A stretch of 64,000 bases of DNA from a virus. Of this stretch, positions 6,557 to 64,000 are shown piece after piece (position 1 is the first letter of the stretch; each line of letters starts with the position of its first letter). The position numbers and the translations under genes are program-made. The notes beneath the pieces were generated by a model. It saw only the letters and a program-made list of their open reading frames with translations, was not told the origin of the DNA and did no database searches. The DNA lies in the IMG/VR virus record IMGVR_UViG_3300024243_000005, positions 62,001 through 126,000 of that record; one strand, 5' to 3'.

Positions 6557-7057
6557 GTGAAAACTGCACAAGCCCTTGGCGTACGCGCTGCACTAATGAA
6601 GCTCGGCGCAGACCTACCCACCAATCAACGCGAGAACGCGTACCAACACTCCGACAACTTTCTGGGCATGTCCGGCGAGTTCCTGCCCAAGGTGACCGGG
6701 ACCATCGGGGGCGCGAGCGCGGGCGCTGCGGTAGGGGCTGGCCTGGGTGGTGGTGCTGGGATACTCGCCAGCCTCCTCAGTCGTGGGCGAATTCCAGGTG
6801 CTGCCGCTGGCGCTGGTGCCTTGCTCGGCGGCGCAGCGGGAACGGGCCTGGGTGCCATGTCCGGGTACCAAACGGGCAAGAATGAGGGGCGTGCCAACCG
6901 TTACATGGCCGAACGCGGCCTACACCGAGAGCGTGGGTTGGAGCGGCACGACAGGCTCCACGAGCTGCGAAATAAACACCCCGCGTTCAACACGAAGTTT
7001 CGCCAGATTATGTTGGGTGGGTCCACCCCAGCACCCGCCTCCCCTCCTACACCGTAG
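6557..7057 (+). CDS. tagged glycine-zipper protein
   Basis: 166 residues from a GTG preceded by GGAG. The first 18 residues match the recurrent tag (AQALG-VRA-ALMKLGA). Residues about 45-100 are two glycine/alanine-rich hydrophobic segments of the glycine-zipper type, likely membrane-active. The C-terminus is charged and helical. It lies just after the beta-beta' fusion. I infer an internal or ejected virion protein from the tag and from similar proteins in the late region. Confidence 0.7.
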   Translation: MKTAQALGVRAALMKLGADLPTNQRENAYQHSDNFLGMSGEFLPKVTGTIGGASAGAAVGAGLGGGAGILASLLSRGRIPGAAAGAGALLGGAAGTGLGAMSGYQTGKNEGRANRYMAERGLHRERGLERHDRLHELRNKHPAFNTKFRQIMLGGSTPAPASPPTP

Positions 7058-7064
7058 AGCACGG

Positions 7065-7093
7065 TTGAATAAAAGAATTCGCAGACCTATACT
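7065..7093 (+). promoter_or_regulatory. rightward sigma-70-like promoter
   Basis: TTGAAT, 17 nt, TATACT, with CC just before the -10 hexamer. It sits in the gap before the 7122 gene, which also has a ribosome site (CGGAGAAA). Confidence 0.65.
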
Positions 7094-7121
7094 TGCTTCG
7101 TAAAGTTTCCCGGAGAAATGT

Positions 7122-7556
7122 ATGTCCCATATCGACACTGCGTATCATCTCGGCGCTCTTGCTGCCCAGGAAAAAATTGCGGAGGAAGAGAAGAAGGGCT
7201 TCACGCTAATTGAAGCGCTGATCCTCGCGGGGGGTATCGGAGTTCCCGCCGCATACATGGGGAATCGGGCAGCAACCGCAGACCGCGAACCCGTTTCAAT
7301 GGGGCGGCGCGCTCTGAGAGGAGCGGCCACGGGCACCGCTGGTGTACTCGGCGGAGCGTTCGGCGGGGGCATGGGTGCCTGGGCCGGGTCCCATCTCCCT
7401 GGACGCCTCCAAGCGCCCGGAGCCATGCTCGGTGGTCTCGCAGGTGCCATCGGCGGGGGCTACATAGGGGGACACACCGCTGGAGACCAGCTAACTCCTG
7501 GTGCTGCACCCAAACCACCAGCACCACCACAACCAACACCACCACAAGGAACCTAA
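7122..7556 (+). CDS. tagged glycine-zipper protein (paralogue of next gene)
   Basis: 144 residues. The N-terminus (MSHIDTAYHLGALAAQEKIA) is nearly identical to that of the next gene, so the two are duplicates at least at their starts. Residues about 30-130 hold hydrophobic and glycine-zipper segments, with a proline/alanine tail. A structural or ejected membrane-active role is inferred from family resemblance within this window only. Confidence 0.7.
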   Translation: MSHIDTAYHLGALAAQEKIAEEEKKGFTLIEALILAGGIGVPAAYMGNRAATADREPVSMGRRALRGAATGTAGVLGGAFGGGMGAWAGSHLPGRLQAPGAMLGGLAGAIGGGYIGGHTAGDQLTPGAAPKPPAPPQPTPPQGT

Positions 7557-7559
7557 GCC

Positions 7560-8012
7560 ATGTCCCATCTTGATACCGCATACCGTCTCGGTGCCCTTGT
7601 GGCCCAAGAGAAGTTCGCAGCAGAAGAGCAAGCTGCACTCGAACAAGCACAAGGTACCCCGCCCCAGGAAGATCCGAGCATGCTCGCCCAGATCTCTCAG
7701 CTCGCCCAGACCCCCGAAGGTATGGGCGGCGCGGCGGGCGGCGTGGGCGGCGCAGCAGCAGCGGGTAGCGCGGCGGGTCTCGGCCTGCGCGGCAGCAGCA
7801 TGAGCCCCAAGGCGAAGGCTGCGCTGATCGTCGCCAGCGTTCTGGGTGGTGGAGCAGCAGGCGGTGTGGGAGGCGCAGCAGCAGGTAACGCCCTCGCCCC
7901 TCCGCCCCCAGCACCGCCCGCACCCCCGACACCCGCGCCTGAGCCAAGCGCCATCGAGAAGCTCAAGGGCATGTTCGGCGGCGGCACACCGGCAGCAGCA
8001 CCACCCCAGTAG
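7560..8012 (+). CDS. tagged glycine-zipper protein
   Basis: 150 residues, starting 3 nt after the preceding stop. The N-terminus (MSHLDTAYRLGALVAQEKFA) matches its neighbour. A short acidic/glutamine-rich linker precedes two glycine/alanine-rich segments (about 55-80 and 90-115) and a proline-rich tail with a short helix. Both the tag and the zipper recur elsewhere in the window. Confidence 0.7.
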   Translation: MSHLDTAYRLGALVAQEKFAAEEQAALEQAQGTPPQEDPSMLAQISQLAQTPEGMGGAAGGVGGAAAAGSAAGLGLRGSSMSPKAKAALIVASVLGGGAAGGVGGAAAGNALAPPPPAPPAPPTPAPEPSAIEKLKGMFGGGTPAAAPPQ

Positions 8013-8029
8013 TCCCCGCACCTGATGCG

Positions 8030-9148
8030 ATGGCCAGATATGACGAGCACGTACAAGAGAAACTGCGTGAGGTCCTAGCGGCCTACGCCCCCGGTATCCC
8101 TGCTCGTCGCACCTCCGCACTCCCCACCATCACCCAGAACACCACCAACCGTTGGGTCATGGCCATCCAGAACCACAAGGCGCAACGCGCCGGTAAGCAC
8201 CACGACCTGCGCCTCGTTGACCCCGACGCAGGCAAGGCGCACTCCTGGGCCATCCCCAAGTCACGCATGCCAGCCCCGGGAGAGCGCCTCCTCGCTGTAC
8301 AAACCCACACGCACACACCGCAATATGCGTTGCACGGCAAAGGGGAAGGCGTAACCCTTGCTCGCAAGGAGCCAGTGAGTGTACTGGAGTCGTCTCCCGA
8401 TAAACTGCGCTTTCAGCTTGAGGATGACGCTGTGAGTGAGTTCCTTTTACGGCGTAAATCCAAGGACAAGTGGCTCCTCATGAACACGACGAAGACGAGC
8501 GCCGTGCTCGGCCAGACCCACGCACTTCGCAGCCTGGGGCTCCTAGAAAAGGACGCCGCCTGGGGCGCAGCAGCAATGAAGGGGCTGGGCGCTGCGTGGA
8601 ACTGGGGCAGTAAGATGTTGGGACGCGTTGGAGGTGGAGGAGCATCCAAGAGCACCGCACTCGTCCCCCGCACTCCCGGTATGCCCCCTATGCCAGGACC
8701 AGCAGGTCCAGGACTAGGACAGAGATTTATGTCCTGGGCAGGGGCCAGTCCCGTGAATGCCTACGCCGCACAGGGTGGTATGGGCGCAGGCATCGGTGGC
8801 GTTGCTGGTGCTGCGTCCGCAGACCCCGGTAACCGCATGGGTGGGTTCATGCGCGGAGCAGTAGGAGGTGCTGCGCTGGGCCTGGGAGGCGCGCACTTCG
8901 GAGGCAAGGCAGGACTAAACTACGCGGCGGGCAAGGGATTCAACCTGAACCAAACGCAGGGTGCCGTCGGTGCCATGGGGCTCGGTGGGCTCAGCGCAGG
9001 TGGACTCGCCGGGGGCATCGCCGGGGGTGCAGGTTTCGGAGGTGCGCCGCCACCACCCGCTCCACCCATGAACCCAACGAACCGTAGCCCGTGGGGTGGG
9101 CAACAAAACGCCGGTGGTATGAGTGGCACGTTTCCTGGCAAGCCCTGA
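8030..9148 (+). CDS. LigD-type 3'-phosphoesterase domain fused to tag and glycine-zipper tail
   Basis: 372 residues. Residues about 42-150 resemble the phosphoesterase (PE) domain of bacterial DNA ligase D, which trims 3'-phosphate and 3'-ribonucleotide ends. H49, H57, D59 and R61 line up with the metal/phosphate-binding H-H-D-R set (with a 2-residue insertion), H95 with the later histidine (H-x3-Y), and HSWAIPK with the conserved SWAVPKG. At about 157-175 the tag recurs internally (VLGQTHALRSLGLLEK), followed by a glycine-zipper region to the C-terminus. I infer a virion-packaged DNA-end-processing enzyme; enzymatic activity is untested. Confidence 0.75.
   Translation: MARYDEHVQEKLREVLAAYAPGIPARRTSALPTITQNTTNRWVMAIQNHKAQRAGKHHDLRLVDPDAGKAHSWAIPKSRMPAPGERLLAVQTHTHTPQYALHGKGEGVTLARKEPVSVLESSPDKLRFQLEDDAVSEFLLRRKSKDKWLLMNTTKTSAVLGQTHALRSLGLLEKDAAWGAAAMKGLGAAWNWGSKMLGRVGGGGASKSTALVPRTPGMPPMPGPAGPGLGQRFMSWAGASPVNAYAAQGGMGAGIGGVAGAASADPGNRMGGFMRGAVGGAALGLGGAHFGGKAGLNYAAGKGFNLNQTQGAVGAMGLGGLSAGGLAGGIAGGAGFGGAPPPPAPPMNPTNRSPWGGQQNAGGMSGTFPGKP
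8446..8458. repeat. dispersed palindrome TTTAC-GGC-GTAAA
   Basis: Exact match inside the LigD-PE-like gene, encoding LRRK through TTA-CGG-CGT-AAA. Confidence 0.8.
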
Positions 9149-9237
9149 TGACACTTGCACAAACAAAAACAGCCTTCTATCATGCGGGTAGACAGTCTGC
9201 TCTGCATGCAATAGGGATTACAGGAGAACGACAATGA
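9148..9237 (+). CDS. 29-residue ORF consisting mainly of the tag motif
   Basis: The ATG overlaps the preceding stop (TGATG) and the stop overlaps the next start. The product contains AFYHAGRQSALHAIGI, an almost complete copy of the tag seen at the N-termini of larger proteins here, followed by only six residues. The end-to-end overlap with both neighbours suggests real translation by coupling. The function could be that of a free tag peptide or a degenerated tagged gene. Confidence 0.5.
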   Translation: MTLAQTKTAFYHAGRQSALHAIGITGERQ

Positions 9238-9905: not shown

Positions 9906-9907
9906 AT

Positions 9908-10201
9908 ATGGCGAGCACCGCATACAAACTGGGGTCTGACCAGGCGCTCCACTCTCTGGGGATCATCAAGGTGAGTGGGGACACCCTCGACCGTGTTCCC
10001 TTCCCCAACAGAGACTCCAACATCACAGCGGAGCGCCTGGCAAAAGTGCTGCAACAAGATGAAACCCCACGCGTGGAGATCAGCCCCGACAACCAGAAGT
10101 TCGATCGCTGGTCACGGCCCGTTGTGTGGAGCGCGTCCAACCGAATAAGCGATGAGCTGCCCAACCCCGGGCTGTACACACCACACAGCACACGAGCCTA
10201 A
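9908..10201 (+). CDS. short tagged protein
   Basis: 97 residues starting 3 nt after the previous stop. The N-terminus (TAYKLGSDQALHSLGIIK) is one of the clearest copies of the shared tag. The remainder is polar, has no glycine zipper and matches no family I know. It immediately precedes the second RNA polymerase fragment, whose TTG start has no good ribosome site, so translation of the two may be coupled. Confidence 0.7.
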   Translation: MASTAYKLGSDQALHSLGIIKVSGDTLDRVPFPNRDSNITAERLAKVLQQDETPRVEISPDNQKFDRWSRPVVWSASNRISDELPNPGLYTPHSTRA

Positions 10202-10203
10202 CT

Positions 10204-11997: not shown

Positions 11998-12013
11998 CCC
12001 CCAAATCGAACAC

Positions 12014-12042: not shown

Positions 12043-12101
12043 TGTGGTGATTTTACGCAGACTCACGCCGAAGAGAGTCACCCGGACGGAGGACAGAACC
12101 A

Positions 12102-13508
12102 ATGCAAGCATCGCTCTTCAAACGTTCCAGTGTACGAGGCATCAACGATGCCCTCATCAACGCCGGGCTACAGTACCCATCCAAGACCGCAGCCGACGAG
12201 GTAGCGGACGCGGTGGCTGATGAGATGATGGTGACCGAGCCCGCGATGGAAGGGGCCGAGGGAGAAATCCCCGCTGAGGAAGCCGCTGAAATCGCCACCA
12301 AGCTGGTGGAAGTGGCCAACGAGCTGATGGCCAGCACGCAGCCCGCACCCGACGCACCCGAGGAAGAGCGCATCGCCGCCTACCACGGCGTCATGGGGAG
12401 CAAGACCGCCGCAGCCCGGGACGTCAACACCCGCGCCGGGGAGCAATCCTACGCCTGCATGCAGAAGGCAGCGGAGGAAGCCGACACCAACGTGTCCGGC
12501 GCAGGCGGCACCGGGTCCACCATCGGTGTGGGCGCGGCAGCGCCCGAGAACACCCTGCCCAACGCCACCTTCGCAGAGACGCAGATGGAAGCGTCCCAGC
12601 GTCCCCCAGGCACCCACGAGGTTGGGGTGGGCAACACCGAGCAAGCACACGCTGGTGTCGTGGGTTCGGAGGATGTCGGCGCAGACACCCCGGCACCGCA
12701 CACCACCGCTGGTGGCGCAGGAACCAACTCGGTGATTGAGCACTCGGAGAAGAACAGCACCCTCCGTCAGATCATCCAGAAGGTGGCCGCAGGGTCGAAC
12801 ATCGAGGGCGGCGACAAGCCCGAGAACACCCTGCCCAACGCCCCCGCCGCCGAGACCCAGATGGAGAACTCCCAGCGCCCGCCAGGGTACGCTGCACTCC
12901 CGCAGCTCGGTGGTACCGTCACCGACATCGGCACCTCCCCCGCCGCAACCGTGGGCACCGAGCAGCCCGTCGACGCCGGTCCCCAGAACACCCCAGCAGG
13001 CGCGGTCCCCGGAAGTGCGGGCAACTCCGTGGTCGAGCACTCGGAGACCTCGATGCCAGGCAAGACTGCAGGCGTCGACCCCGCGTACCTCCATCTCTTC
13101 CAGAAGACCGCCAACCACGTGGTCGACTTCCTGCCCAGCCAGTACACCGAGAACGACAAGGTGGCGCAGGTCCGCTACATGATGGGCCTGAATGACGGCG
13201 AACGCTCCGCGCACATCTCCTCCCTGCACAAGCACGCCGGGACCATGGACGCACAGAGCATCGTCGACATGTACAGCATCTACGCCGACAAGGTGGCCGA
13301 GGAAGAGGCCGCTGCTGCCGGTGCACCACCCCCGGCCCCGAAAGCGGAGAAGGGCGACTGGATGGACCGCATGTCCAAGACCACGGACGGCGCGTACGAC
13401 TGGGCCAACGCCAAGGCCCACGACGTCAAGACGTGGGTGCAAAAGAAACTCAAGAAGGACCCGAAGCCCGCAAAGCCCGCAGCACCGGCGGCAGCACCGG
13501 CGAAGTAG
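12102..13508 (+). CDS. large low-complexity virion-type protein with internal repeats
   Basis: 468 residues. The N-terminus carries a degenerate tag (GINDALINAGL). The middle contains duplicated blocks (PENTLPNA...AETQM...SQRPPG and NSVIEHSE/NSVVEHSE, each twice). The C-terminal third is helical. Short K-T-A/K-V-A strings occur repeatedly (SKTAA twice, QKVAA, GKTAG, QKTAN). It may be an internal head or scaffold-like protein processed by the prohead protease; this is inference from composition and position. Confidence 0.7.
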   Translation: MQASLFKRSSVRGINDALINAGLQYPSKTAADEVADAVADEMMVTEPAMEGAEGEIPAEEAAEIATKLVEVANELMASTQPAPDAPEEERIAAYHGVMGSKTAAARDVNTRAGEQSYACMQKAAEEADTNVSGAGGTGSTIGVGAAAPENTLPNATFAETQMEASQRPPGTHEVGVGNTEQAHAGVVGSEDVGADTPAPHTTAGGAGTNSVIEHSEKNSTLRQIIQKVAAGSNIEGGDKPENTLPNAPAAETQMENSQRPPGYAALPQLGGTVTDIGTSPAATVGTEQPVDAGPQNTPAGAVPGSAGNSVVEHSETSMPGKTAGVDPAYLHLFQKTANHVVDFLPSQYTENDKVAQVRYMMGLNDGERSAHISSLHKHAGTMDAQSIVDMYSIYADKVAEEEAAAAGAPPPAPKAEKGDWMDRMSKTTDGAYDWANAKAHDVKTWVQKKLKKDPKPAKPAAPAAAPAK

Positions 13509-17759: not shown

Positions 17760-18581
17760 ATGCTGATGGACGAAGTAAGACTGGAGAAATACGCCGCTGA
17801 AGTAATCCAGGGCTACAAGTCCGCGAACGTGCCGTTGACGGACGGCGTCGTCAAGGTAGCGGAGGCGCGCTCGCTGAACGAGGAACAGGTACGTCGCCTG
17901 GTCGAGCGCGTGAACAACGATGTCTTTCAGCACCACTTCAAACAAGCAGAGGAAGCGAAAAGCGAAGACCGGAACGTGACCTTCGAACCCGCGAACCCCG
18001 ACAGCGTACTCACCCGGCTCATCAACTCCGCCAAGGACGCCATCAACCCCACTCCCGAAGACTCGGCGGCGTCTGACCCTATGGACCTCATTGGAGACCT
18101 CCCCAATGGTTCTGACGCAGCGGGCCTGGGTGAACCAGAAAAGACTGCCTCCGCGCCAGAAGAGGAGCCCCTCCCATCCAAAGCAATCGTCATCACGCGA
18201 CTGCGGAAAGCAGCCGGGGAGATGCGCATCGCTGAGACACAGGCCCGGTCCACCCTCACCGACGCCATGCAGAAGCTCGCGCGCCACTTCACCTTCCTGG
18301 ACAACAAAGAGAAGTTTGCTGGCTTCGAGCGTGATGCGGTTTACCACCGTGGCAACGACGCCGCGCCGTACCTCGCCCTCACTCGCCGTGCTCTGCGTAT
18401 GCCCCGCATGACCTACGACGCCACCGCACTCCACAAGGTGGCACGTGTGGTCGACACCAACACCACTGAGATGCGGCTGTTGGATGCCTTCATCGCGGCT
18501 GACCAAGAAGTGGCGCGGCTGCACGCAGGCGTGGAGAAGATGGCAGCATACGAGAAGCAAGCAGGGACGCTGACCAGGTGA
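17760..18581 (+). CDS. hypothetical helical virion-type protein
   Basis: 273 residues with a ribosome site (TTAGGAG). Largely helical, charged N-terminus, acidic linker including PEKTASAPEEE, helical C-terminus. The PEKTAS string resembles the K-T/V-A-A/S strings seen in other head-region proteins and may be a protease-processing site. It overlaps the next gene by 4 nt. Confidence 0.7.
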   Translation: MLMDEVRLEKYAAEVIQGYKSANVPLTDGVVKVAEARSLNEEQVRRLVERVNNDVFQHHFKQAEEAKSEDRNVTFEPANPDSVLTRLINSAKDAINPTPEDSAASDPMDLIGDLPNGSDAAGLGEPEKTASAPEEEPLPSKAIVITRLRKAAGEMRIAETQARSTLTDAMQKLARHFTFLDNKEKFAGFERDAVYHRGNDAAPYLALTRRALRMPRMTYDATALHKVARVVDTNTTEMRLLDAFIAADQEVARLHAGVEKMAAYEKQAGTLTR

Positions 18582-20178: not shown

Positions 20179-20829
20179 ATGACCCCCGAAGAAGCGTACC
20201 ACCAGTTAATGGCAAAACTCTCCGCGTGCTCTGCACAGGAGAAGACTGCCTCCGTGACCCCCACGGATGCCGCCCTGCTCCAGAAAACTGCAGCGGATGT
20301 GGACGCGTTCGAGACTTTCATGAAAATCGCCTTGTCCTGGCGCGGTGTGAAGGATGTTGCCCGTATCGCAGTACCAACTGCGATAGGTGCAGGTGGGGTC
20401 GCAACGGGTGGTGTTTACCTGGCGGGCCAGAACCTCATCAACAACGCAGACGCCAAAGCAAAGGCGCGCATTGAGGAGATGCGTGCGAAAGCATCCAAGG
20501 TTGCACTTGGTGCAACTGTAGCGGGGGCCACGCTGCTCGGCCTGCACCACTACCTCTCCAAGGACCGAGAACGGGCGCTGCTCCCTGGACGCCGCCCTGC
20601 ACCACGCCGCCGCCCTGCACCACGCCGCCTCGCACCGATGATGCCCACTTACAGGGGCTACGCATCGAAGTTCGGCTCCGCATTCAACCCAGCAGAAGCC
20701 GAGACCCTCGAAAAGATAGGGACGGTTGTGTACCTGGAAGTGATGCTGCAAAAAACAGCACACAGTGATACACTGCGTCTACTCAACGCAGAACACGGAT
20801 CATCACTACTCCAAGAGCTACTGCCGTGA
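20179..20829 (+). CDS. glycine/alanine-rich membrane-active protein
   Basis: 216 residues. The N-terminus contains two likely processing strings (QEKTAS, LQKTAA) at about 21-40. Two hydrophobic segments follow (about 62-80 and 108-125). A short arginine/proline repeat (RRPAPR) is encoded by duplicated DNA at about 20580-20630. The C-terminus again has LQKTAH. It overlaps the protease gene by 4 nt. Probably an internal head protein. Confidence 0.7.
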   Translation: MTPEEAYHQLMAKLSACSAQEKTASVTPTDAALLQKTAADVDAFETFMKIALSWRGVKDVARIAVPTAIGAGGVATGGVYLAGQNLINNADAKAKARIEEMRAKASKVALGATVAGATLLGLHHYLSKDRERALLPGRRPAPRRRPAPRRLAPMMPTYRGYASKFGSAFNPAEAETLEKIGTVVYLEVMLQKTAHSDTLRLLNAEHGSSLLQELLP

Positions 20830-22790
20830 CCCACGACCCCACTGACCGCCTCAAGATAATCAACCTGGGTGAACGTTTTGAACACACAGGTGAGCCCACT
20901 GTACAGCCAGTGGTGCTCTGGGGTTTACGCGGTAAACCATGCTTCGAAAAAGTGTCCGCAGAGCTTCAGGGGAGCCCCGCCCTGGAGTACGCACGCAGCA
21001 TCGAACCCGTACCCGGGAAAACGATATCCCTGATCATCGGGCTGGGTAGTTTTGAATTTTACGGCCTGAACCGCAACGGTGATGGGTTCAACGAACAACC
21101 CTACCGCGTCGGGCAGCAGCCAACCTGCGGGTGCTGTACTGATAAGACGCGCACCGCGTGGATTGAGGAAGCTGAGTGCACCACCCACCACTACCAGAGC
21201 TACGAAAACGGTGCGGTGTTTCGCCACCACGTCAATAAGGACCGGAAGAAGGCTGTTGGGCACATCCTCAAAGCGTTCTGGAATCCCATCATGCACCGTG
21301 TCGAGGTCATCGAAGACCTGAACAACGCCAAGGCTCCCGACCTCGCAACACGGATAGGGGACGGGGAATTCCCTGCCAAGAGCATGGGGTGCCGCATCAA
21401 GTTCGATGTCTGCACCAAGTGTGGCCATCGCGCCCCAACCAGGAAACAATACTGCGACCACCTCAAGTGGGAAATGGGACACCTGGACCAAGCGACAGGT
21501 ATTCGCTACGGCGCCCTCAACCCTGCCCCCAACTTCTTCGACAGTTCCTGGGTTTTCCGCCCCGCTGACCGCACAGGTTGGATGCTCAAAAAAGTCGCAG
21601 AACACGCGTACGAACTACAGGGCTCCAGTATCCTGGGCGAGCGTGTCGAAGACCTGAATCACAAAGCTGCGGCTGCGCAGAAGCTGGCCGTCATCGACAA
21701 AATCGTACAGGGGTACCCCGCCGCTGCATTCCCCGATGACGCCGACGCACCCCTCATCGAGCGCTTCTGCCAGACAACGCTACCCACCATGGTAGAGAAC
21801 ACCGAAGAACTAACCACGGAAGATATGTCGCAGTTGAACCCAACTGACGACATCGCTGACGTACTCGCGTCTTTGGCTGAAGAAGGCATCACCCTCACTA
21901 CCCCTGAATTCATTCGTCTGTTCGTATCACGCATGGCACCAGGTGTTGAAGTTCCTCCCGCCATCATGCCATACGCAGTTATCCTACAGTCGGAGTTGTT
22001 CGACCTTCTACGGCAACACCCCTCTCTGGTTGAAGAGGTGGTTACTCCTCTGACCAAGGAAAAACCACAACGCATCAAAATCCCAGAACCCATTCTGGAG
22101 AAGCGCTCATTCATCGGTGAATATCTACAACGCCGCCTGGCACCCACCATGCTGCAAGGCAACGCCGCTCCTACCACCGACCTCCTGCACGTACTCCCTT
22201 CACAGGGTCAAGACGGCTTCAAAACCACGCGAGGCGCTGCACAAGGAACACAGGATGCCATCGCAGAAGCGAAGCTCAAGCAGGGTGTAGTCGCGGGCCT
22301 CCTGAGCAGCGTTGGCCTGGGCGTAGCTGGTCTCGTAGCCAAGAAAGCCCCTGGTGCACAAAAGTGGCTCGCTCTGGCCCCACTCGCAGGTGGGCTGGGC
22401 CTCGGGGGATACTACGGGGCAGAGGCCCTGCGCCCTGTGAAAATGAGGCGCACTACAGAAGGTGGTCTGATCCCCGCACGAACCCCCATGAAAGAGTATC
22501 CACGCGCCGATGTTGAAGAGAGCGCACTCATGGAAGCAACGAAACGAAGTGGTTTGAGCCACCGCGTAAAGTCTGGGTCTGTCATTGCGCACTTGCGCAA
22601 GTACAGCGCAGCACAGCACCCCATGGCGCTGTTTGTTACAAAGCACGCCAGTCACGGCGCCCAGTGCTCACACCTGTCTCTCGCAGCCATCGCACACGCA
22701 CTCGAAAAGCGCGCATCTGCGGGCATATTTGAAGAGCCAATTGACCTAGACAAAGTAGCCGATTTGGTCGGATGCCTCATATGGGCGTAA
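20826..22790 (+). CDS. prohead protease-like protein with C-terminal extension
   Basis: 654 residues from a GTG. The N-terminal 220 residues match phage prohead proteases of the NRNGD type: N-R-N-G-D (82-86), FRHHVNKDRKKAVG (H134 or H135 as catalytic histidine), HRVEVIEDL, and AKSMGCRI with S186 as likely nucleophile. A zinc-knuckle-like insert follows (C196, C199, C210, H212). The long C-terminal part has a glycine-zipper hydrophobic segment (about 495-540) and helices, and may be a scaffold or ejected domain. Position just upstream of scaffold and capsid genes fits head maturation. Family assignment rests on remembered motifs. Confidence 0.7.
   Translation: MTHDPTDRLKIINLGERFEHTGEPTVQPVVLWGLRGKPCFEKVSAELQGSPALEYARSIEPVPGKTISLIIGLGSFEFYGLNRNGDGFNEQPYRVGQQPTCGCCTDKTRTAWIEEAECTTHHYQSYENGAVFRHHVNKDRKKAVGHILKAFWNPIMHRVEVIEDLNNAKAPDLATRIGDGEFPAKSMGCRIKFDVCTKCGHRAPTRKQYCDHLKWEMGHLDQATGIRYGALNPAPNFFDSSWVFRPADRTGWMLKKVAEHAYELQGSSILGERVEDLNHKAAAAQKLAVIDKIVQGYPAAAFPDDADAPLIERFCQTTLPTMVENTEELTTEDMSQLNPTDDIADVLASLAEEGITLTTPEFIRLFVSRMAPGVEVPPAIMPYAVILQSELFDLLRQHPSLVEEVVTPLTKEKPQRIKIPEPILEKRSFIGEYLQRRLAPTMLQGNAAPTTDLLHVLPSQGQDGFKTTRGAAQGTQDAIAEAKLKQGVVAGLLSSVGLGVAGLVAKKAPGAQKWLALAPLAGGLGLGGYYGAEALRPVKMRRTTEGGLIPARTPMKEYPRADVEESALMEATKRSGLSHRVKSGSVIAHLRKYSAAQHPMALFVTKHASHGAQCSHLSLAAIAHALEKRASAGIFEEPIDLDKVADLVGCLIWA
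20934..20946. repeat. dispersed palindrome GGTTTACGCGGTAAACC
   Basis: Exact match with the same 17-bp context as at 17153, near the protease start, encoding GLRGKP again. Confidence 0.85.
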
Positions 22791-22863: not shown

Positions 22864-23484
22864 ATGGAACTCAAAGACATCCTGAACCGCCTGGACAAGA
22901 CCACGCAAGCCAACGAAGGTGGCGTGAAAACTGCCGGTGCCCAGCCCACCACCCCCATCGCTCCCGACGCATTGCGCGATGCGGTGCGCAACGCCTCCGG
23001 TGACGGTGAGACCAAAGTGGCCTCTGCACCAGAAGAGGACACCAGCGCACAGCTCCTCAAGATGGCGTCCGACCTGGCCAGCGCAGAAGACCAAGCGCTC
23101 ACCAAGCGGGCCTCCGTGCTCGGCGCCGCCATGTGTGATGGCTTCATGACCCGCTTCGCCTCCTACGAGGAGGCCGCAGGCGCCGTCGCCCCGCAGGCGG
23201 AAAAGGTCGCCGCCGCGCAGGAGTACCACGGCGACATCACCGTGGACATGATCAAGCAGGCCGCAGCGAGCCCGGACTTCACCAAGTTCGCGGAGGACAA
23301 CCCGCAGCTCGTGAAGGAAGCCTTTGACCTGGGCTACCAGCAGACCCTGGGTGCGATGGAGAAGCAAGCCGCCGCCGAGTACGAGCAGGGCTACAACGAG
23401 ACCATGGCCACCGTGCACAAGATCGCCGCCGAGTGCTACATCCAGGGTGAGACCAAGATCGCCCAGATTCTGGCCGCAGGTTAG
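22864..23484 (+). CDS. scaffold-like helical protein
   Basis: 206 residues from the ATG at 22864 (an in-frame upstream start at 22825 overlaps the promoter, so I prefer the inner one). Acidic, alanine-rich and almost wholly helical, with processing-like strings (VKTAG, TKVAS). Location between protease and capsid genes and this composition fit a prohead scaffold. No sequence family recognised. Confidence 0.7.
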   Translation: MELKDILNRLDKTTQANEGGVKTAGAQPTTPIAPDALRDAVRNASGDGETKVASAPEEDTSAQLLKMASDLASAEDQALTKRASVLGAAMCDGFMTRFASYEEAAGAVAPQAEKVAAAQEYHGDITVDMIKQAAASPDFTKFAEDNPQLVKEAFDLGYQQTLGAMEKQAAAEYEQGYNETMATVHKIAAECYIQGETKIAQILAAG

Positions 23485-25464: not shown

Positions 25465-26379
25465 ATGGAACAGTACGCCACGCAAGAAAGCGAAGTTGAA
25501 GCGCGGCTCGTCAACTCGAACTTCGTCAAGAAGATCGAGGAGGGGCGCACCAAAGAGGCCCAAGACGAGGGCTCCGCATTCATCCGCATGAAGGTCCGTC
25601 AGGAATCCTTCGCCCGCGAGATCATCCACCCCATCCTTCTGGAAGACGACCAGATCGACCGGGACGAGAACTCCGACCAGCCCAAGAAGATCGTGGAGAA
25701 GGAGCCAGACAGCGTGGCCACCTTCGTGACCTTCCAGGGCACCGGGCGGCGTACCTGGTTCCGTGGCCTCCGCTTTGCGGTGAAGTTCGGGAAGACCGAA
25801 TCCCAGCGCTTCACCAAGAACAAGTGGGAGCTGATGACGTACCAGAACGACATCCGCAAGATCCTCTCAGACAACTCGGTCAAGGACATGGCCGACCAGG
25901 AGGACACCCACTTCATCGGCACCATCGATGACCTGATCGCGCTGAACCTCGCGACGCAGATGACCACGGCCACCGGCTTCAACTCCGCCAGCTTCAAGAA
26001 GGCGTTCCAGGCCATGGTGCGTCGTCGCCAGCCCATCGGCAAGATGCTGATGACCAAGGAGCTGTACTACGAGGCCCTGGACCTGCCCGCCACCTCCGTC
26101 GGCAACACGGTCGCCTCGCGGCACTACGACGAGGGCATCGAGGACGAGGACGTCCTGTGGGGTCTGCCGGTGGTGTCCACCATGAAGAGCGACGTCCTGA
26201 ACCCCAAGAAGGCGTACGTCTTCGCCCCCGAGGAGTTCCTGGGCTGCTTCTTCCTGCTGCAGGACGCGACCCTGTACATCAAGCACGAGGCCGACATCAT
26301 CGAGTTCTGGAGCTACGCGGCTCCGGGCATCGGCATCGGGAACACGCTGGCTTTCCAGGCCATCACCTTCCCGGCGTAA
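25465..26379 (+). CDS. major capsid protein (probable)
   Basis: 304 residues with a strong ribosome site (CTGGAGGACC). Charged helical N-terminal arm, mixed alpha/beta core, hydrophobic C-terminal end (YAAPGIGIGNTLAFQAITF). Size, codon bias toward GC-ending codons, its own strong translation signals and the decoration-protease-scaffold context all point to the major capsid protein. An HK97-type fold is likely but not demonstrated. Confidence 0.75.
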   Translation: MEQYATQESEVEARLVNSNFVKKIEEGRTKEAQDEGSAFIRMKVRQESFAREIIHPILLEDDQIDRDENSDQPKKIVEKEPDSVATFVTFQGTGRRTWFRGLRFAVKFGKTESQRFTKNKWELMTYQNDIRKILSDNSVKDMADQEDTHFIGTIDDLIALNLATQMTTATGFNSASFKKAFQAMVRRRQPIGKMLMTKELYYEALDLPATSVGNTVASRHYDEGIEDEDVLWGLPVVSTMKSDVLNPKKAYVFAPEEFLGCFFLLQDATLYIKHEADIIEFWSYAAPGIGIGNTLAFQAITFPA

Positions 26380-36736: not shown

Positions 36737-37771
36737 GTGGCGCCCGCGTCCCATAACGCTCGCGAAGCGGGGCGCGTCACTGCGCTGCAAGAGCTTGGCC
36801 TGGCCGAAGCGGGGGAGGAGAAAGTTGCCTTCCCCGCTGGTGCTGCGTTCAATGCTCTTGCAGGTGCAGGTAAGTGGGGCTTCAAACAACTGGGGCGCGC
36901 AGCGGGCTTTGCTATGGGCGGGGGTCCCCTCAACCCCGTGATACGCGGGGCCACCAACTACGCAGGCAGGGGCATAAACGCCGCAATGAAACACCTGCGC
37001 GTCCCCGAGAAGGTACGAAAAACGCTCGGGTACATGGGCAAGACTGCGCCGCTGCACGCGGGAGCCTGGGGGGGATTCGGGGGCCTGATGGGTGGGGCCA
37101 TGGGCTACGCTGATCCTAACAAACGAAGCTGGGATTGGGCGGGAGCAGGGCGCGGGGCACTCATGGGTGCCGCATCCGGTATCGGCATGGGGCTCATAGA
37201 GGGCGGCGCTCGCGCAGGTCTACGCGGGGTGCTAGGGCAGCAGCGCTGGAGGGGCCTCCAAAACACCGCACGCCGAGGGCGCGTCGGCACAGCTACGCCA
37301 GGCGGCGTACGCAGCCAATCCATGCTACCGGGCATTGGAGCCGCCGCTGGTGCCGCCGGTGGCTACATGACACGTGACCCCAACCAGGAGGGTATCCCCT
37401 GGCAGCGCATGGCGGCAGGTGCAGCCATAGGCGCAGGCGCAGGTCTCGGGGGCACCGCCCTCATGCACGGCGGAAAAGCTGCCAGGGGCTGGCTCGCAGG
37501 GGGCGTCACCGGCACTACCGGGCGTCTAGGTAATACCGCCAACTACAACAAAATGCGTATGCTGAGTATCCCCGGTATCGCGGGCATGGGCCTCGGAATG
37601 GGTGTCATCGACCCCCTGATACACGGAGATGGGGGCGAACAGTCACAGCACCAACAACAGTACGGTCCCCAAGGCCCCATGGGCTACGCACCACACAGAC
37701 TAGCAGGCCACGGTATTTCACAATTGCCCCGCCCGTACAATCCGTACTACAATCGGTACTATAATCGGTAA
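36737..37771 (+). CDS. tagged glycine-zipper protein, possible tail-associated
   Basis: 344 residues from a GTG 5 nt after the sheath stop. The N-terminus is a tag copy (AGRVTALQELGLAEAG). Many glycine/alanine-rich hydrophobic segments follow and a glutamine/tyrosine-rich C-terminus. Unusually placed between sheath and tube genes. Confidence 0.7.
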   Translation: MAPASHNAREAGRVTALQELGLAEAGEEKVAFPAGAAFNALAGAGKWGFKQLGRAAGFAMGGGPLNPVIRGATNYAGRGINAAMKHLRVPEKVRKTLGYMGKTAPLHAGAWGGFGGLMGGAMGYADPNKRSWDWAGAGRGALMGAASGIGMGLIEGGARAGLRGVLGQQRWRGLQNTARRGRVGTATPGGVRSQSMLPGIGAAAGAAGGYMTRDPNQEGIPWQRMAAGAAIGAGAGLGGTALMHGGKAARGWLAGGVTGTTGRLGNTANYNKMRMLSIPGIAGMGLGMGVIDPLIHGDGGEQSQHQQQYGPQGPMGYAPHRLAGHGISQLPRPYNPYYNRYYNR

Positions 37772-47925: not shown

Positions 47926-48171
47926 GTGCGAAAGCTCGGGCAAATACACGCACTTGCGTCGCTAGGTTACGGCGTAAAGCACGCAAGTGCGATGATACCC
48001 GTCCAGGGATCCAGGGACCCATACAGCGACGTGCAGCGTAAGTTGACCGACGCCTTCTCTGTTAAGATGCCGAAGTTCGACATCTCCGAATCCCTCTCTC
48101 GCATGTTGGGTAACCCATTCAAGCAACCCCAGGATCAAATTGCGGGGAAGATAACGCCAGTGAGGATGTGA
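47926..48171 (+). CDS. short tagged protein
   Basis: 81 residues from a GTG right after the previous stop. N-terminus RKLGQIHALASLGYGVKHAS is a clear tag copy. The codons for SLGYGVKH overlap a palindrome copy flanked by an 11-bp inverted repeat. The rest is a small helical domain. Confidence 0.6.
   Translation: MRKLGQIHALASLGYGVKHASAMIPVQGSRDPYSDVQRKLTDAFSVKMPKFDISESLSRMLGNPFKQPQDQIAGKITPVRM
47949..47991. repeat. near-match palindrome flanked by 11-bp inverted repeat
   Basis: GTTAC-GGC-GTAAA at 47966-47978, flanked by CGCACTTGCGT and ACGCAAGTGCG. Confidence 0.7.
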
Positions 48172-48956
48172 TGATGCCCTCTCCCTACTACAAATTCGCC
48201 ACCACCGCACTCGGCATCCTGGCTGAACAGGAGAAGCTCGCCAAACACAAGCTCTCCCGCCGCATGGACTTCCATGGCCTGAAGATCTCCATCGAGACGG
48301 ACAAGGGCGAGTTCCGCCACTGGTATGACCCTCACAACAAGGAGAAGGGTAAGACCAAGATGTCCCACCCCTACGGCTACATTCGCCGTACAGAGGGTGT
48401 GGACGGCGACCACGTGGACGTCTACATAGGCCCCCACCTCGATGCCCCCTTCGTCTACATCGTGCACCAGATGAAGGCCCCCGACTTCACCGCGTACGAC
48501 GAAGACAAGTGCATGTTGGGGTTCCAAAACGCTGCTGACGCGAAGGCCGCATACCTCACCAACTTCAATGACGACCGTTTCTTTGGTACCATGGACAAAT
48601 TACCGTTCGCCACTTTCAAGACGAAGGTCATGGCCACGTTCAACAACCCAAAGAAGGTCACCGGACAGCGCCTCAAGAGCGCCGAACTCGCCTACCAGGT
48701 CAAGGTGAGCAACGCATTCACAAACCTGTTCCGGCGCGCGCCCAAACCTGCTGCTCCTGCTGCCGTACCTGGGATGCCGTCCTCGGCGTGGGCACTCGCC
48801 GCTCCCGCTGTAGGTGTCCCACTCGGCCTTGGTGCTGCATCAGCGTACACGAATCACCAAGTACCACCCCCACCATCACCTGACCAGAGTGTGGTCACCA
48901 CAGCGGGTAACTACCTGAAGGACCTATTGGGCGTCGCGCCCACGACTGAGGATTAG
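48168..48956 (+). CDS. InPase-domain (polyvalent-protein type) with tag-like N-terminus
   Basis: 262 residues. Residues about 26-165 match the InPase domain found in large polyvalent proteins of phages and conjugative elements: FHGLKISIET, HPYGYIRRTEGVDGDHVDVY, VYIVHQMK, CMLGFQNAADAKAAYL, and the FATFKTKV end. That domain is thought to act on diphosphate-type substrates, and its carriers are delivered into the recipient cell. A tag-like N-terminus (YYKFATTALGILAEQEK) and a hydrophobic alanine-rich C-terminus are added here. Supports the idea that neighbouring tagged proteins are ejected with the DNA. Confidence 0.75.
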   Translation: MMMPSPYYKFATTALGILAEQEKLAKHKLSRRMDFHGLKISIETDKGEFRHWYDPHNKEKGKTKMSHPYGYIRRTEGVDGDHVDVYIGPHLDAPFVYIVHQMKAPDFTAYDEDKCMLGFQNAADAKAAYLTNFNDDRFFGTMDKLPFATFKTKVMATFNNPKKVTGQRLKSAELAYQVKVSNAFTNLFRRAPKPAAPAAVPGMPSSAWALAAPAVGVPLGLGAASAYTNHQVPPPPSPDQSVVTTAGNYLKDLLGVAPTTED

Positions 48957-48958
48957 CA

Positions 48959-49822
48959 ATGAACCCACGTGAGCACCAAGCACTACTCATCAAACTCGGA
49001 CTGGATACAAGCCAGGGTATCCCTGCTGGGTCCATGGAAGAGCAGCTCCTCGGGTACGGGAAGCCCCTGCTCGCCATCGGTGGTGGCGCTGCTGGTGGTG
49101 CCATCCTGGGTGGCTTGGGCGACAAGCTACTGGGGACCGCACTCAACCGTCAAGACCTCCCACCAATCCTCACCATGTTGGGTATGGCGGGTGGTGGCTA
49201 CGGCGGGTACCAAGCAGCACAGCCCACCGATGGACAATCCAGCTTCTGGGATAAAATCCGCAGGAAGACCAACGACGCCTCGCAGAGCGTCTTCGGTAGC
49301 AACTGGACCGAACCCCAAGGCACGGGCGGTGTGGGCGCAGGGGCATTCAGAGACACCACCTCGAAAGACGCAGCGTTCCTCGGCGACAACGTCCCCAGCA
49401 TCACCCCTCGGCCTCAACCCCCCATGCCCAACAAGGTGGCCGCTGCACAACCATCCTTGGGTGACCCCGACTACTGGGCGGGGGGCCAAGCTGAGATCAT
49501 CAAGCAGCAACTCGCCTCTCAAGGGGGCACTCCGATGCCCGAGGCCCCTATGCCCGAGGCTTCCGCACCCGGCGGTGCAGAGGGCGGCGGATCCACTGGC
49601 GTGGAGCAAGTAGCGGCGCAGCTCCCCCCGGGGTCCTTCCAGGGACTCAACATCCGTGTGACGCCCGAAGGAAAACGCTCCACGGGCCTGAAGGTCACCC
49701 CGGATGCCTTGGCTTCTCCCGAGGTGCTGCAGCAGGTATTCCAGACAGAACCCGAAGCCCGCATCGAAATCACCTCACCCGAGACCTCCGCATCCGTGAC
49801 GAGCTTCAGTGAGCGTGGCTGA
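48959..49822 (+). CDS. tagged glycine-zipper protein
   Basis: 287 residues, start adjacent to the previous stop. N-terminal tag REHQALLIKLGLD. Glycine/alanine-rich segments (about 37-85), then low-complexity proline/glutamate sequence and a small beta/alpha C-terminal domain. Coupled to the next gene by a short overlap (TGATG). Confidence 0.65.
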   Translation: MNPREHQALLIKLGLDTSQGIPAGSMEEQLLGYGKPLLAIGGGAAGGAILGGLGDKLLGTALNRQDLPPILTMLGMAGGGYGGYQAAQPTDGQSSFWDKIRRKTNDASQSVFGSNWTEPQGTGGVGAGAFRDTTSKDAAFLGDNVPSITPRPQPPMPNKVAAAQPSLGDPDYWAGGQAEIIKQQLASQGGTPMPEAPMPEASAPGGAEGGGSTGVEQVAAQLPPGSFQGLNIRVTPEGKRSTGLKVTPDALASPEVLQQVFQTEPEARIEITSPETSASVTSFSERG

Positions 49823-50139
49823 TGTCCCAGCACGCACACCATGGGGCCGCTGCCGCCCTTACGAAGCTGGGGTTCAACGTGGGCCTGTACCCCTACTTCC
49901 CACGCACTGAGGAAGCCACTCCTCCCACTGCGAAGAAACCCGAACGCGACCCCTGGACCAAGGTTCGCATGATGGGTCCCGCCGTCGGAGCAACCACTGG
50001 GGGTGTCCTGGGTTTGGTCTCAGCCCTACGCAACCCCCGCAGCATCGGGAAGACCCTCAAGCACACCCTCGGCGGTGCAGGCACGGGCTCTCTGCTCGGC
50101 TGGGCACCCGACTTCTACTCCACCGCATACGAAGCATAA
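49822..50139 (+). CDS. short tagged protein with hydrophobic segment
   Basis: 105 residues. N-terminal tag HGAAAALTKLGFNVG. Then a basic region, a hydrophobic glycine-rich segment (about 52-70) and a second near the C-terminus. Last gene of the tagged cluster before a new promoter. Confidence 0.65.
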   Translation: MSQHAHHGAAAALTKLGFNVGLYPYFPRTEEATPPTAKKPERDPWTKVRMMGPAVGATTGGVLGLVSALRNPRSIGKTLKHTLGGAGTGSLLGWAPDFYSTAYEA

Positions 50140-60682: not shown

Positions 60683-60709
60683 GTCGCTCTCCTCGTTTGT
60701 CTCAGCATA

Positions 60710-60964: not shown

Positions 60965-61133
60965 CTTCGTTCCCTGGAATCACCACTATCACAGTGGCGT
61001 CCTTGTCGCTCGGTGGTGGATAGATCACGGCAACGCCGCGCCCACCCTCTTCAGGTGCAGCTTCGTCCGGTACCGGGGGGTACGGGTACTGATCTTCAAT
61101 GTATACGTACGGCTGGTCCATGTTGTTACCCAT
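60951..61133 (-). CDS. small acidic protein
   Basis: 60 residues from the ATG immediately after the tRNA-Ala 3' end (MGNNMDQPYVY). Proline/tyrosine-rich and acidic. Placement next to the tRNA suggests processing of a common transcript. Confidence 0.5.
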   Translation of the reverse strand: MGNNMDQPYVYIEDQYPYPPVPDEAAPEEGGRGVAVIYPPPSDKDATVIVVIPGNEDGND

Positions 61134-61134
61134 G

Positions 61135-61207
61135 TGGAGGATAAGGGACTCGAACCCTCGACCCCGGGCTTGCAAAGCCCATGCTCTCCCAACTGAGCTA
61201 ACCCCCC
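61135..61207 (-). tRNA. tRNA-Ala (TGC)
   Basis: Acceptor GGGGGGT/ATCCTCC with two G-U pairs, D-arm GCTC/GAGC, anticodon stem TGGGC/GCCCG with loop TTTGCAA (anticodon TGC), T-arm GAGGG/CCCTT. CCA not encoded. Confidence 0.85.
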
Positions 61208-61278
61208 CGAAAAAACCCGTGCACGTTACACGGGGCGCATCTCTTGTACATGATTGACCAGAGGCGTCCCTCTCATGG

Positions 61279-61350
61279 CTGGGGCAGGAGGATTCGAACC
61301 TCCGAATGCGGGCACCAAAAACCCGTGACTTACCACTTGTCGACGCCCCA
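61279..61350 (-). tRNA. tRNA-Gln (TTG)
   Basis: Acceptor TGGGGCG/TGCCCCA, D-stem GAC/GTC, anticodon stem CGGGT/GCCCG with loop TTTTGGT (anticodon TTG), T-arm GGAGG/CCTCC. The 3' CCA appears encoded (61276-61278). Confidence 0.8.
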
Positions 61351-61525
61351 AAAAACGCAATGTATCACACTCCTTCCTGATTTTGGGCTCCTCACCGCCG
61401 GGCCTCCCTGCAGCTACCCTGTCGGCCTTCTCAGACGAGATCCGAAGGAACAAAAAATGAAAGACGTTGCGCCTCTCTGCTCACATGAGCTTAACGAAAG
61501 AATGTAACTACGAGCTACGTGATTT

Positions 61526-61534
61526 CTTATACCA
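61526..61534 (-). promoter_or_regulatory. leftward TGGTATAAG promoter of the tRNA unit
   Basis: Minus strand CTGGTATAAGAA. A palindrome copy fills the place of the promoter spacer (61536-61548), so a protein bound there would directly overlap this promoter. Confidence 0.55.
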
Positions 61535-61535
61535 G

Positions 61536-61548
61536 TTTACCGCGTAAA
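61536..61548. repeat. dispersed palindrome TTTAC-CGC-GTAAA
   Basis: Exact match overlapping the leftward tRNA promoter and the stop codon of the 61537 gene. Confidence 0.85.
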
Positions 61549-61806
61549 TTCGAGAACTGTTGAGGGTGTGGTGAACCCCGGGACGACGGCGCTTGTCACG
61601 CCCGTGATGTGCCGCCCCGGGAGAGGGTCGCACCCTCGATGTCCTGGCGTGGGAGGCCAGTATTGAGGGGTCACCTCTACTACGCCATCGTGACTCTCCC
61701 GGGGGACCCAGCTATTGGCCCATGCGGTTTTTCCGAGTTGAGTCGCCTGCAACGCAAGCACTATCCACCACGAAAATAGCAATGCGCTCACCAGAACAAG
61801 GATCAT
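61537..61806 (-). CDS. small membrane protein
   Basis: 89 residues with ribosome site GGGAGGTGAG. A hydrophobic N-terminal helix (about 2-20, MILVLVSALLFSWWIVLAL) acts as membrane anchor or signal. The stop codon lies inside the palindrome copy. Confidence 0.6.
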   Translation of the reverse strand: MILVLVSALLFSWWIVLALQATQLGKTAWANSWVPRESHDGVVEVTPQYWPPTPGHRGCDPLPGRHITGVTSAVVPGFTTPSTVLEFTR

Positions 61807-61931
61807 GGCTCACCTCCCTGGTGTGTTAAGGGTTGGACTACTCATTTGCAATTACCTGCATCATCTCCTCTGCGCGACAGCGAAACCTGGAAACTCTCGG
61901 CCCCGATTAGGTGCCTACCCAGGATGACCCG

Positions 61932-62330: not shown

Positions 62331-62394
62331 ATCACTGTCTCCTTGTTGCGGCTCCGTTGCCGCGCAGAGGAGATCTGCAATTTGTTATCATCTC

Positions 62395-62814
62395 TTACGG
62401 GTACCGCCGTGTCCAGAGTCCGCACGGATTATCGAAGTCGAGGCACCAGGTTGTGAACTCCGGTGTACGAAACGGGCGTTTCCACACACAACAATAGGAC
62501 CTCACCTTGTAGTGGCTCGCGGGACCGGTGAAGCACACACGGGGCTTGCGCTCTGGGGGCTGCGTTTTGTACCCATTGCTCACACACCAATCCCGCAACT
62601 GACGGTGATTCATCGCACAACCGCTGCCGAAGACGCCTGCCAACGCGAACGCCACAACGACCGCAAGCATCCAAAGACATCCAGAACCTGTTGTTGCCTT
62701 CGGGGCCTTCGCAGGGTTACCCCCACATCGATAGCACACGTTGCCTCCCAGCCTCCACGTAGACTGCTTGTTGCAGCTACGACACAGGCCCTGAATTTCA
62801 ACTTCCATGTACAC
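62395..62814 (-). CDS. zinc-ribbon membrane protein
   Basis: 139 residues (a shorter start at 62808 is equally possible). N-terminal zinc ribbon with CRSC and CYRC pairs, then a membrane helix (about 47-65), then a cysteine-rich outer domain. No family recognised. Confidence 0.6.
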   Translation of the reverse strand: MYMEVEIQGLCRSCNKQSTWRLGGNVCYRCGGNPAKAPKATTGSGCLWMLAVVVAFALAGVFGSGCAMNHRQLRDWCVSNGYKTQPPERKPRVCFTGPASHYKVRSYCCVWKRPFRTPEFTTWCLDFDNPCGLWTRRYP

Positions 62815-62840
62815 AACCTACGTTGGGCACGCCGACAGTG

Positions 62841-63143
62841 TCAACCGGCATTCTGCTCAAGGGCTTTTGCGCGGGCACGTGCGCGCGTCTCCAACTTCTG
62901 TAGGTAGTTCTTGAGCTTCCACTCAGCCATAGGCGCGTGGCATTTCACCTCGTGCCGCAGGTACGTAGCCTCCTCCATTGCACCTTTTCCCGCCCAATGC
63001 ACTAGCGCAGATTCTCGCATCTCCTGCAACAAGGCAATCTGCTTCACATAGTTCTCCTCCAGCGCACGCGTGCTCTTCAGCAGCGCTACTACCTTCTCCG
63101 CTGTCATCGGAGGTTTCGTATCAATATCATCGATTCCTGCCAT
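62841..63143 (-). CDS. small helical protein
   Basis: 100 residues, almost wholly helical with a coiled-coil-like stretch. First gene of the leftward stretch; the lipoprotein gene starts divergently 75 nt away. Confidence 0.6.
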   Translation of the reverse strand: MAGIDDIDTKPPMTAEKVVALLKSTRALEENYVKQIALLQEMRESALVHWAGKGAMEEATYLRHEVKCHAPMAEWKLKNYLQKLETRARARAKALEQNAG

Positions 63144-63217
63144 AACCCCTCTCAGGTTGATTAAATAAACTCAGTTGATGTAGAGTGCGAAGTACACAAC
63201 TCACACGGAGACGAAAC

Positions 63218-63778
63218 ATGACCCACATCGGAAAGATTCTGACCAAGGCACGCCCCACCATCCAACACTTCCGCGCACACATCCTCCTGGTGTGCCTCGC
63301 AGCCATGCTCGTCGCTTGCCCCGCTGGGATGTCCGTCTATGACCACATGCGCAACGTGCTCAGCTACCAGGATGTGGGCACCGCGTTCTCCGACGCCATC
63401 GTGAAGCGTTGGATGTCCAAGCAGACCGACGAGGCCAAGAAAGCCGAGGTCCAGGCCAAGTACGACAAGATCAAGCTGAGCACCCTCAAGGGCATCGCCG
63501 CCCTGGAGGCGACCATCGATACCGCTGAGAACGCCGGGACCGGAGGTGACCCCAAGAAGCTGCGCGAGGACGTCAAGAAGCTCGTGGCCAAGCTCCTGGA
63601 CTTCGGCCTGTCGCTGGAGAGCGCCATCACGCCCGTGGACCCACTGCCTGCGACCCCTGCGCCCGACACTGCCACACCTGCATCTGCGCCGAACAGCAAC
63701 TACCTGGACGTGGTGCGCGAACGTAACCGGATCCTGGCCAGGATCGACGCGGACTTCGAGCGCCGGTTCAACTTGTAG
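63218..63778 (+). CDS. lipoprotein
   Basis: 186 residues from the ATG at 63218 (ribosome site CGGAGA). Positively charged N-terminus, hydrophobic segment and lipobox LVAC with C34 as the lipidation site. Helical mature part, alanine/proline tail. Could be an outer spanin or an infection-exclusion protein. Confidence 0.65.
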   Translation: MTHIGKILTKARPTIQHFRAHILLVCLAAMLVACPAGMSVYDHMRNVLSYQDVGTAFSDAIVKRWMSKQTDEAKKAEVQAKYDKIKLSTLKGIAALEATIDTAENAGTGGDPKKLREDVKKLVAKLLDFGLSLESAITPVDPLPATPAPDTATPASAPNSNYLDVVRERNRILARIDADFERRFNL

Positions 63779-63807
63779 CGCCCGCACGCCCCGCCTATAA
63801 TGCTGGC
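63773..63807 (+). promoter_or_regulatory. rightward sigma-70-like promoter with leaderless start
   Basis: TTGTAG, 17 nt, TATAAT, with CC before the -10; then 6 nt to the ATG at 63808. Confidence 0.65.
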
Positions 63808-64000
63808 ATGTACACTGCTGGCCACCACCACGCCCTCACACAACTCGGTCTCGAAAAAAGCGCCGGGCTCGCCGACACCATCCAAGCAGGGAAGACCTTC
63901 CTTGCGGGATTCAAGGATAAGGCACGCGCCGCGTCAGATGCTTTGAGCACAGGCACAGCCACTACGCTCCCCGGCGTAAGGCGAGGTGCTGTACCCACCC
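63808..64000 (+). CDS. tagged protein, 3'-truncated by window edge
   Basis: At least 64 residues. N-terminus YTAGHHHALTQLGLEKSAG is a textbook copy of the tag; then a lysine/alanine region. The gene continues beyond the window. Confidence 0.65.
   Translation, partial: MYTAGHHHALTQLGLEKSAGLADTIQAGKTFLAGFKDKARAASDALSTGTATTLPGVRRGAVPT

Follow-up and report, generated by a model that had tools for sequence, protein, structure and literature searches.

We analyzed a 64,000-nucleotide stretch of DNA (the window), which corresponds to bases 62001-126000 of a 180,179-base IMG/VR phage record (IMGVR_UViG_3300024243_000005), for a short peptide, here called the tag, that recurs on otherwise unrelated proteins; the remainder of the record was examined as well. 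A first-pass annotation of the window had described an N-terminal pattern, G-x3-A-L-x2-L-G-hydrophobic, on about ten proteins. All the copies that it listed are present at the starts of their open reading frames (ORFs), and the core pattern held, but the real tag is longer, with [AF]Y at its start and, in many copies, K-x-A at its end. The tagged genes of the window are as follows (aa, amino acids; bits, weight-matrix scores).

6557..7057 (+), glycine-zipper protein of 166 aa; tag at 6566-6610 (AQALGVRAALMKLGA; 26.9 bits), its G being residue 8, with K-T-A directly upstream of the tag
7122..7556 (+), glycine-zipper protein of 144 aa; variant tag at 7140-7184 (AYHLGALAAQEKIAE; 24.7 bits), terminating in E-K-I-A
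7560..8012 (+), glycine-zipper protein of 150 aa; variant tag at 7578-7622 (AYRLGALVAQEKFAA; 27.7 bits)
8030..9148 (+), protein with a LigD-type 3'-phosphoesterase domain, an internal tag at 8498-8542 (SAVLGQTHALRSLGL), and a glycine-rich part; K-T-S stands before the tag and E-K-D-A after it
9148..9237 (+), 29-codon ORF, hardly more than a tag (TKTAFYHAGRQSALHAIGI); its place in relatives is taken by a longer small protein with the tag at its end
9908..10201 (+), protein of 97 aa; tag at 9920-9964 (AYKLGSDQALHSLGI), kept in orthologues
12102..13508 (+), conserved protein of the head module, in which K-x-A occurs 11 times; tag at 12126-12170 (SSVRGINDALINAGL), with a conserved K-x-A on either side in orthologues
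36737..37771 (+), glycine-zipper protein of 344 aa; tag at 36758-36802 (AREAGRVTALQELGL; 23.0 bits), followed by E-K-V-A
47926..48171 (+), protein of 81 aa; tag at 47926-47970 (VRKLGQIHALASLGY; E 1.1e-5)
48168..48956 (+), InPase (PF18823) protein; looser tag at 48183-48242 (PYYKFATTALGILAEQEKLA)
48959..49822 (+), protein of 287 aa; degenerate tag at 48959-49003 (MNPREHQALLIKLGL), lacking the glycine (EHQALLIKLGL)
49822..50139 (+), protein of 105 aa; tag at 49831-49875 (HAHHGAAAALTKLGF; 22.3 bits)
63808..64000 (+), protein of 204 aa that continues beyond the window; tag at 63808-63852 (MYTAGHHHALTQLGL), followed by E-K-S-A

Most of the copies that had been called clear are so, the exceptions being the glycine-less one at 48959 and the minimal ORF at 9148. 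The related start noted for the pair at 7122 and 7560 indeed belongs to the same tag family, the start of the InPase protein is a looser variant as had been stated, and the internal copy said to follow an enzyme domain lies behind the LigD-type domain.

A tag that moves as a module

A simple custom gene finder applied to the whole record gave 221 genes, and pattern counts were made on 223 predicted proteins. Among these, G-x3-A-L-x2-hydrophobic-G-hydrophobic occurs in 12 copies, compared with a mean of 0.54 and a maximum of 3 in 300 shuffles; within the first 60 residues, it is found in 8 proteins (shuffles, 0.09; maximum, 1). A six-frame scan confined the copies that head an ORF on the + strand to 68.5-126.4 kb of the record, with scattered matches elsewhere. 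We then searched IMG/VR with the capsid protein, which yielded 80 related loci, and used ten capsid-bearing relatives of 69-198 kb (G001, G003, G004, G005, G006, G007, G010, G018, G020, and G021), as well as G014, a 20-kb stretch only, which is a relative by its RNA polymerase. An iterated tag weight matrix, with matches counted above 11 bits in the 12 tagged genomes, found 137 matches versus 3 in shuffled proteins and up to 17 per genome. The consensus of 95 N-terminal tags is [A/F]-Y-x2-G-x3-A-L-x2-[L/F]-G-[L/F/V]-x-K-x-A, in which the G is kept in 94/95 and the A in 91/95. The first-pass annotation had proposed running a tag profile on the whole genome and its relatives, and matrices trained on one set recovered the tags of the other: the relatives-only matrix found most tags of the window, and the window-only matrix found tags in the relatives.

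The tag is real, a chance origin being rejected by the shuffle counts and the cross-trained matrices. Its bearers are otherwise unrelated, as originally claimed, since clustering of the 142 matching proteins with the tag masked left 91 families, 67 of which were singletons. Codon choice at identical tag residues is random (same codon in 52/208 cases versus 66 expected), so that the tags are not DNA repeats and a recent DNA duplication is ruled out. With a second tag profile, the tag was present in further capsid-bearing contigs, and none was found in Salmonella phage Arash, in D69, or in most of the more distant polymerase relatives. A tblastn search with the consensus tag against 50,697 phage records gave no match, short queries being weak in such a search. 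Two strict DNA patterns run across IMG/VR gave one match each, and the only locus long enough to be checked (L185) had no tag, so that its match looks like chance. Searching bacterial genomes with the capsid protein found no host.

Evaluation of the position of the tag relative to known domains revealed that it is a module. The tag follows the LigD-type 3'-phosphoesterase domain in the window, precedes it in G001, G006, G014, and G021, and does both in G010. Similarly, the InPase domain, which is of phage type PF18823 in the 48168 protein (E 2.4e-35), has a looser tag before it in the window and is followed by a tag in G001, G010, and G020. A single G020 protein comprises InPase, the tag, and the C-terminal part of the 48959 protein; in the window these parts are divided between two proteins (48168 and 48959), with a looser tag on each. 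True C-terminal tags exist in relatives, and the 63808 protein has a second, weaker tag copy at its C-terminus, just outside the window (AKMGSYNALAALGF, running into the stop codon). Glycine zippers are found in 52% of the tagged proteins versus 13%. PHROG relatives of the InPase protein include a minor head protein, a virion structural protein, and a DarB-like antirestriction protein, and a tagged 939-aa protein of G014 combines 3'-phosphoesterase, ATP-dependent DNA ligase, DUF4269, and C39 peptidase domains.

The tag is almost entirely restricted to the strand that encodes the capsid protein. The first-pass annotation had named an equal frequency of the motif in non-virion proteins as contrary to its reading; the motif occurs in 0/127 opposite-strand genes of this genome, and over 11 genomes, N-terminal tags head 89/972 capsid-strand genes versus 5/1080 genes of the other strand (Fisher p 8e-24; this and the other p values are optimistic because orthologues are not independent).

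K-x-A and the head maturation protease

Using a matrix that stops before K-x-A, we found K-x-A at G+10 to +16 in 52/106 N-terminal tags, compared with a background of ∼2%. Several C-terminal tags have K-x-[A/S/G] ahead of the tag instead. The same motif marks the following features of the head module.

17760..18581 (+), core-like head protein; 12 K-x-A versus 2.2 expected; its Arash orthologue is annotated as structural
20826..22790 (+), prohead (head maturation) protease, in which H135 and S186 do not vary
22864..23484 (+), core/scaffold-like protein, in which K-x-A occurs 11 times versus 2.6 expected and is conserved at 4 sites; a stretch resembling the tag lies at residue 157 (EAFDLGYQQTLGAMEKQA)
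25552..25560 (+), K-E-A, the local form of a K-x-A that is invariant at residue 30 of the major capsid protein (gene 25465-26379)

The product of gene 20826 is a prohead protease by its fold and its conserved His and Ser. It matches the PHROG head maturation protease (E 5.8e-8), and Foldseek matched its model to prohead proteases in BFVD with a probability of 1.00 and, weakly, to T4 gp21 in the PDB (E 0.29). A K-V-A at residues 256-258, directly behind the predicted catalytic core, is invariant in 25 sequences. K-x-A is likewise found near residue 30 in every capsid protein compared, including those of Arash and D69 (36-39% identity). Conserved lysines lie within K-x-A in 13/46 cases in head proteins versus 1/92 elsewhere (p 2e-6), and the core-like proteins contain 316 K-x-A versus 102 expected. 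K-x-A is also enriched in Arash, in the orthologue of the 17760 protein and in neighboring head-module proteins that the Arash record annotates as structural.

The bodies of the tagged proteins show the opposite bias, with 47 K-x-A versus 98 expected and 32 K-x-G versus 96 expected, whereas the reversed control A-x-K is near normal (112/98). When 1591 residue pairs are ranked by their depletion in these bodies, K-x-G comes first and K-x-A fifth. Little or no K-x-small bias was seen in RNA polymerase (1.00), tail (0.90), or opposite-strand genes (0.98). K-x-A is probably the protease site, and depletion of K-x-small is what would be expected of proteins that share the prohead with a K-x-small protease. 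What is new here is the combined pattern, in which K-x-A, as a putative cleavage site, stands at the end of about half of the N-terminal tags and in the capsid protein, the protease, and the core, and is avoided in the presumed cargo, with no such avoidance in early, tail, or polymerase proteins. The multisubunit RNA polymerase genes of the window (1872-6527 and 10204-11997) show no avoidance of K-x-[A/G/S], which hints that the polymerase is outside the prohead while the protease is active.

A putative prohead-targeting role and its alternatives

We consider it likely that the tag acts as a modular peptide that targets proteins to the prohead and is then removed by the maturation protease; it would resemble the targeting sequence of phage T4 in its working while being unrelated to it in sequence. 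The tag is predicted to form a short helix with A/F-4, Y-3, G0, A4, L5, and L/F8 on one face; an AlphaFold2 model of the 97-aa 9908 protein has a helix at residues 4-16, on the tag, with low confidence (57). The conserved face would dock on the internal core (scaffold) or on the inner shell during head assembly, and docking would bring unrelated late proteins into the prohead. The protease encoded at 20826-22790 would then cut at K-x-A, thereby trimming the N-terminus of the capsid protein, dismantling the core, and clipping the tag, the last in perhaps half or more of cases. Clipped cargo would remain in the head, and thus in the virion, and would presumably be delivered with the DNA. Of the T4-like packaging signal suggested in the first-pass annotation, packaging has good, if indirect, support from the strand restriction and the K-x-A pattern, and the likeness to T4 would hold in the working and fails in the sequence.

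The tag-like stretch of the 22864 protein ranks fifth in tag likeness among 16,185 columns of conserved proteins, beside the tag of the 12102 protein, and offers a lead on a candidate docking partner. We tentatively suggest, as a minority view of our own data, that the tag copies a helix found in the phage's own core (scaffold) protein, so that cargo would enter posing as scaffold and be freed at shared K-x-A sites. Such copying would provide a general loading code, with which the lineage could freely swap dozens of injected effectors.

Several points weigh against a cleaved targeting peptide. Tag cleavage is deduced from sequence only, and about half of the N-terminal tags have no K-x-A directly behind them. 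The directional rule (K-x-A after N-terminal and before C-terminal tags) is partly clear (before: 11/32 versus 7/47, with A or S). Untagged glycine-zipper proteins partly share the avoidance of K-x-G (0.55), the cultivated relatives Arash and D69 have no tag, some matrix matches are false (e.g., a conserved internal stretch of a 572-aa protein family), and the p values are optimistic, as mentioned above.

The N-terminal tags without a directly following K-x-A would also suit an uncleaved helix that positions proteins by docking, in the head or else at the portal, the core, or the inner shell, K-x-A being part of the helix or of its contacts; the glycine-x3-alanine face indeed resembles a docking surface. 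We regard this as unlikely, since the tagged bodies avoid K-x-A and the capsid protein and the protease keep it invariant, which points to a protease site, and T4 has the same enrichment pattern. Action after delivery, with the tag docking proteins to a membrane or to each other so that an ejection channel is formed in the host envelope, would account for the glycine zippers on half of the tagged proteins, which are typical of membrane-inserting proteins. It fits poorly with tags on soluble enzymes (InPase and 3'-phosphoesterase/ligase), at C-termini, and between domains, and the hydrophobic moment of the tag, a signal of amphipathic helices, is not above that of shuffles (0.20 versus 0.22), making this explanation improbable.

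Two further explanations appear very improbable, to a similar degree. The tagged proteins might be diverged paralogues of one family with the tag as a remnant, as several of them are glycine-rich and adjacent (7122 and 7560), but the 91 families left after masking, the occurrence of one enzyme domain with the tag before or behind it, and the unrelated enzyme folds argue against shared ancestry. The tag might also address another site in the infected cell, e.g., a phage replication compartment, and nucleus-forming phages import selected proteins via a dedicated pathway, as outlined in PMC11087766; yet the opposite-strand genes are almost devoid of the tag, and the tagged proteins avoid the probable motif of the head protease.

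If the tag is a cleaved prohead-targeting peptide, sequence would suffice to read out what an uncultivated phage lineage injects, which would include proteins whose function is unknown, a DNA ligase/3'-phosphoesterase, and a pyrophosphatase. The idea of the T4 targeting sequence, which concerns a handful of proteins, would then extend to dozens of families and to either protein end. Avoidance of the protease site in cargo may generally mark proteins that share the prohead with the protease.

Known systems and neighboring genes

Encapsulin cargo-loading peptides and the encapsulation peptides of microcompartments are short modular end peptides that load unrelated enzymes into a shell. By this general description, the tag would be analogous, being likewise short, modular, and placed at a protein end, and perhaps serving to load a shell. 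These shells are not known to clip the loading peptide with a maturation protease.

In T4, a capsid targeting sequence is carried by IpI, IpII, IpIII, and Alt, and the protease motif is [LI]-x-E (PMC9026906). As a control, we counted [LI]-x-E in T4 proteins and found it enriched in gp22 (16/5.7), gp21, gp68, and gp23; IpII and IpIII have a single copy, whose position (residues 8-10) coincides with the end of the targeting sequence. The T4 sequence and the tag are alike in being short N-terminal peptides on otherwise different proteins. The prohead protease motif ends the T4 sequence, and its putative counterpart K-x-A ends about half of the N-terminal tags; in both cases the motif recurs in the capsid protein and in core or core-like proteins, cleavage being predicted from sequence in our case. 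They differ in that there is no sequence similarity (best tag-matrix scores of ipI, ipII, and ipIII, -5.6 to -16.4), that the motif is K-x-A here rather than [LI]-x-E, that the putative cargo is far more diverse (91 families), and that tags are also found at C-termini and between domains. Given a T4-like working and failed sequence homology, we do not count the tag as a member of the T4 targeting sequences.

In phages of the SPN3US/phiKZ type, the prohead protease trims head proteins at A-x-E and clips its own C-terminus, and gp53 and gp54 have identical first 15 residues (PMC5694885, PMC10052503). The x-in-the-middle protease motif of head proteins is thus shared with the putative site described here, but the SPN3US propeptides are mostly 111-254 residues long, with another motif and in another phage group, and a helix motif shared across many families is not described in these reports (PMC5694885, PMC10052503). 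Polyvalent proteins are injected and combine several effector domains, InPase among them (PMC5512222). InPase is present here as well, and the 939-aa tagged protein of G014 is multidomain, but the putative effectors of the phage studied here are for the most part small proteins that stand alone, with a tag on each.

Several further features were noted. A conserved protein of 190-230 aa (9234-9905 in the window) is repeatedly found between tagged genes; it has an N-terminal hydrophobic stretch plus a second one and no family match. A deoxynucleoside kinase (PF01712) is encoded within the late region (50987-51661). Left of the window edge (record bases 60144-61862) lies the gene of the 572-aa protein, which is conserved in nine genomes and has no PHROG or Pfam match; its internal GGxxRALLTLGEVKEAE resembles the tag, including K-x-A. 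We set this stretch (GGxxRALLTLGEVKEA) aside as probably a tag look-alike, the alternative being that it is the origin of the tag. InPase, a separate tagged protein in the window, is inserted in G004 in a fused RNA polymerase beta/beta' protein, between Rpb2_3 and Rpb2_6 (168302-173074; L172:8302-13074), with a similar arrangement in G003 and G005; a pyrophosphatase built into the polymerase would clear the by-product of transcription. Finally, a cluster of small paralogous proteins with CxxC pairs and a start of the form MKCKxCPF is encoded on the opposite strand at ∼161.5-166.7 kb of the record, and CxxC is strongly enriched on that strand.

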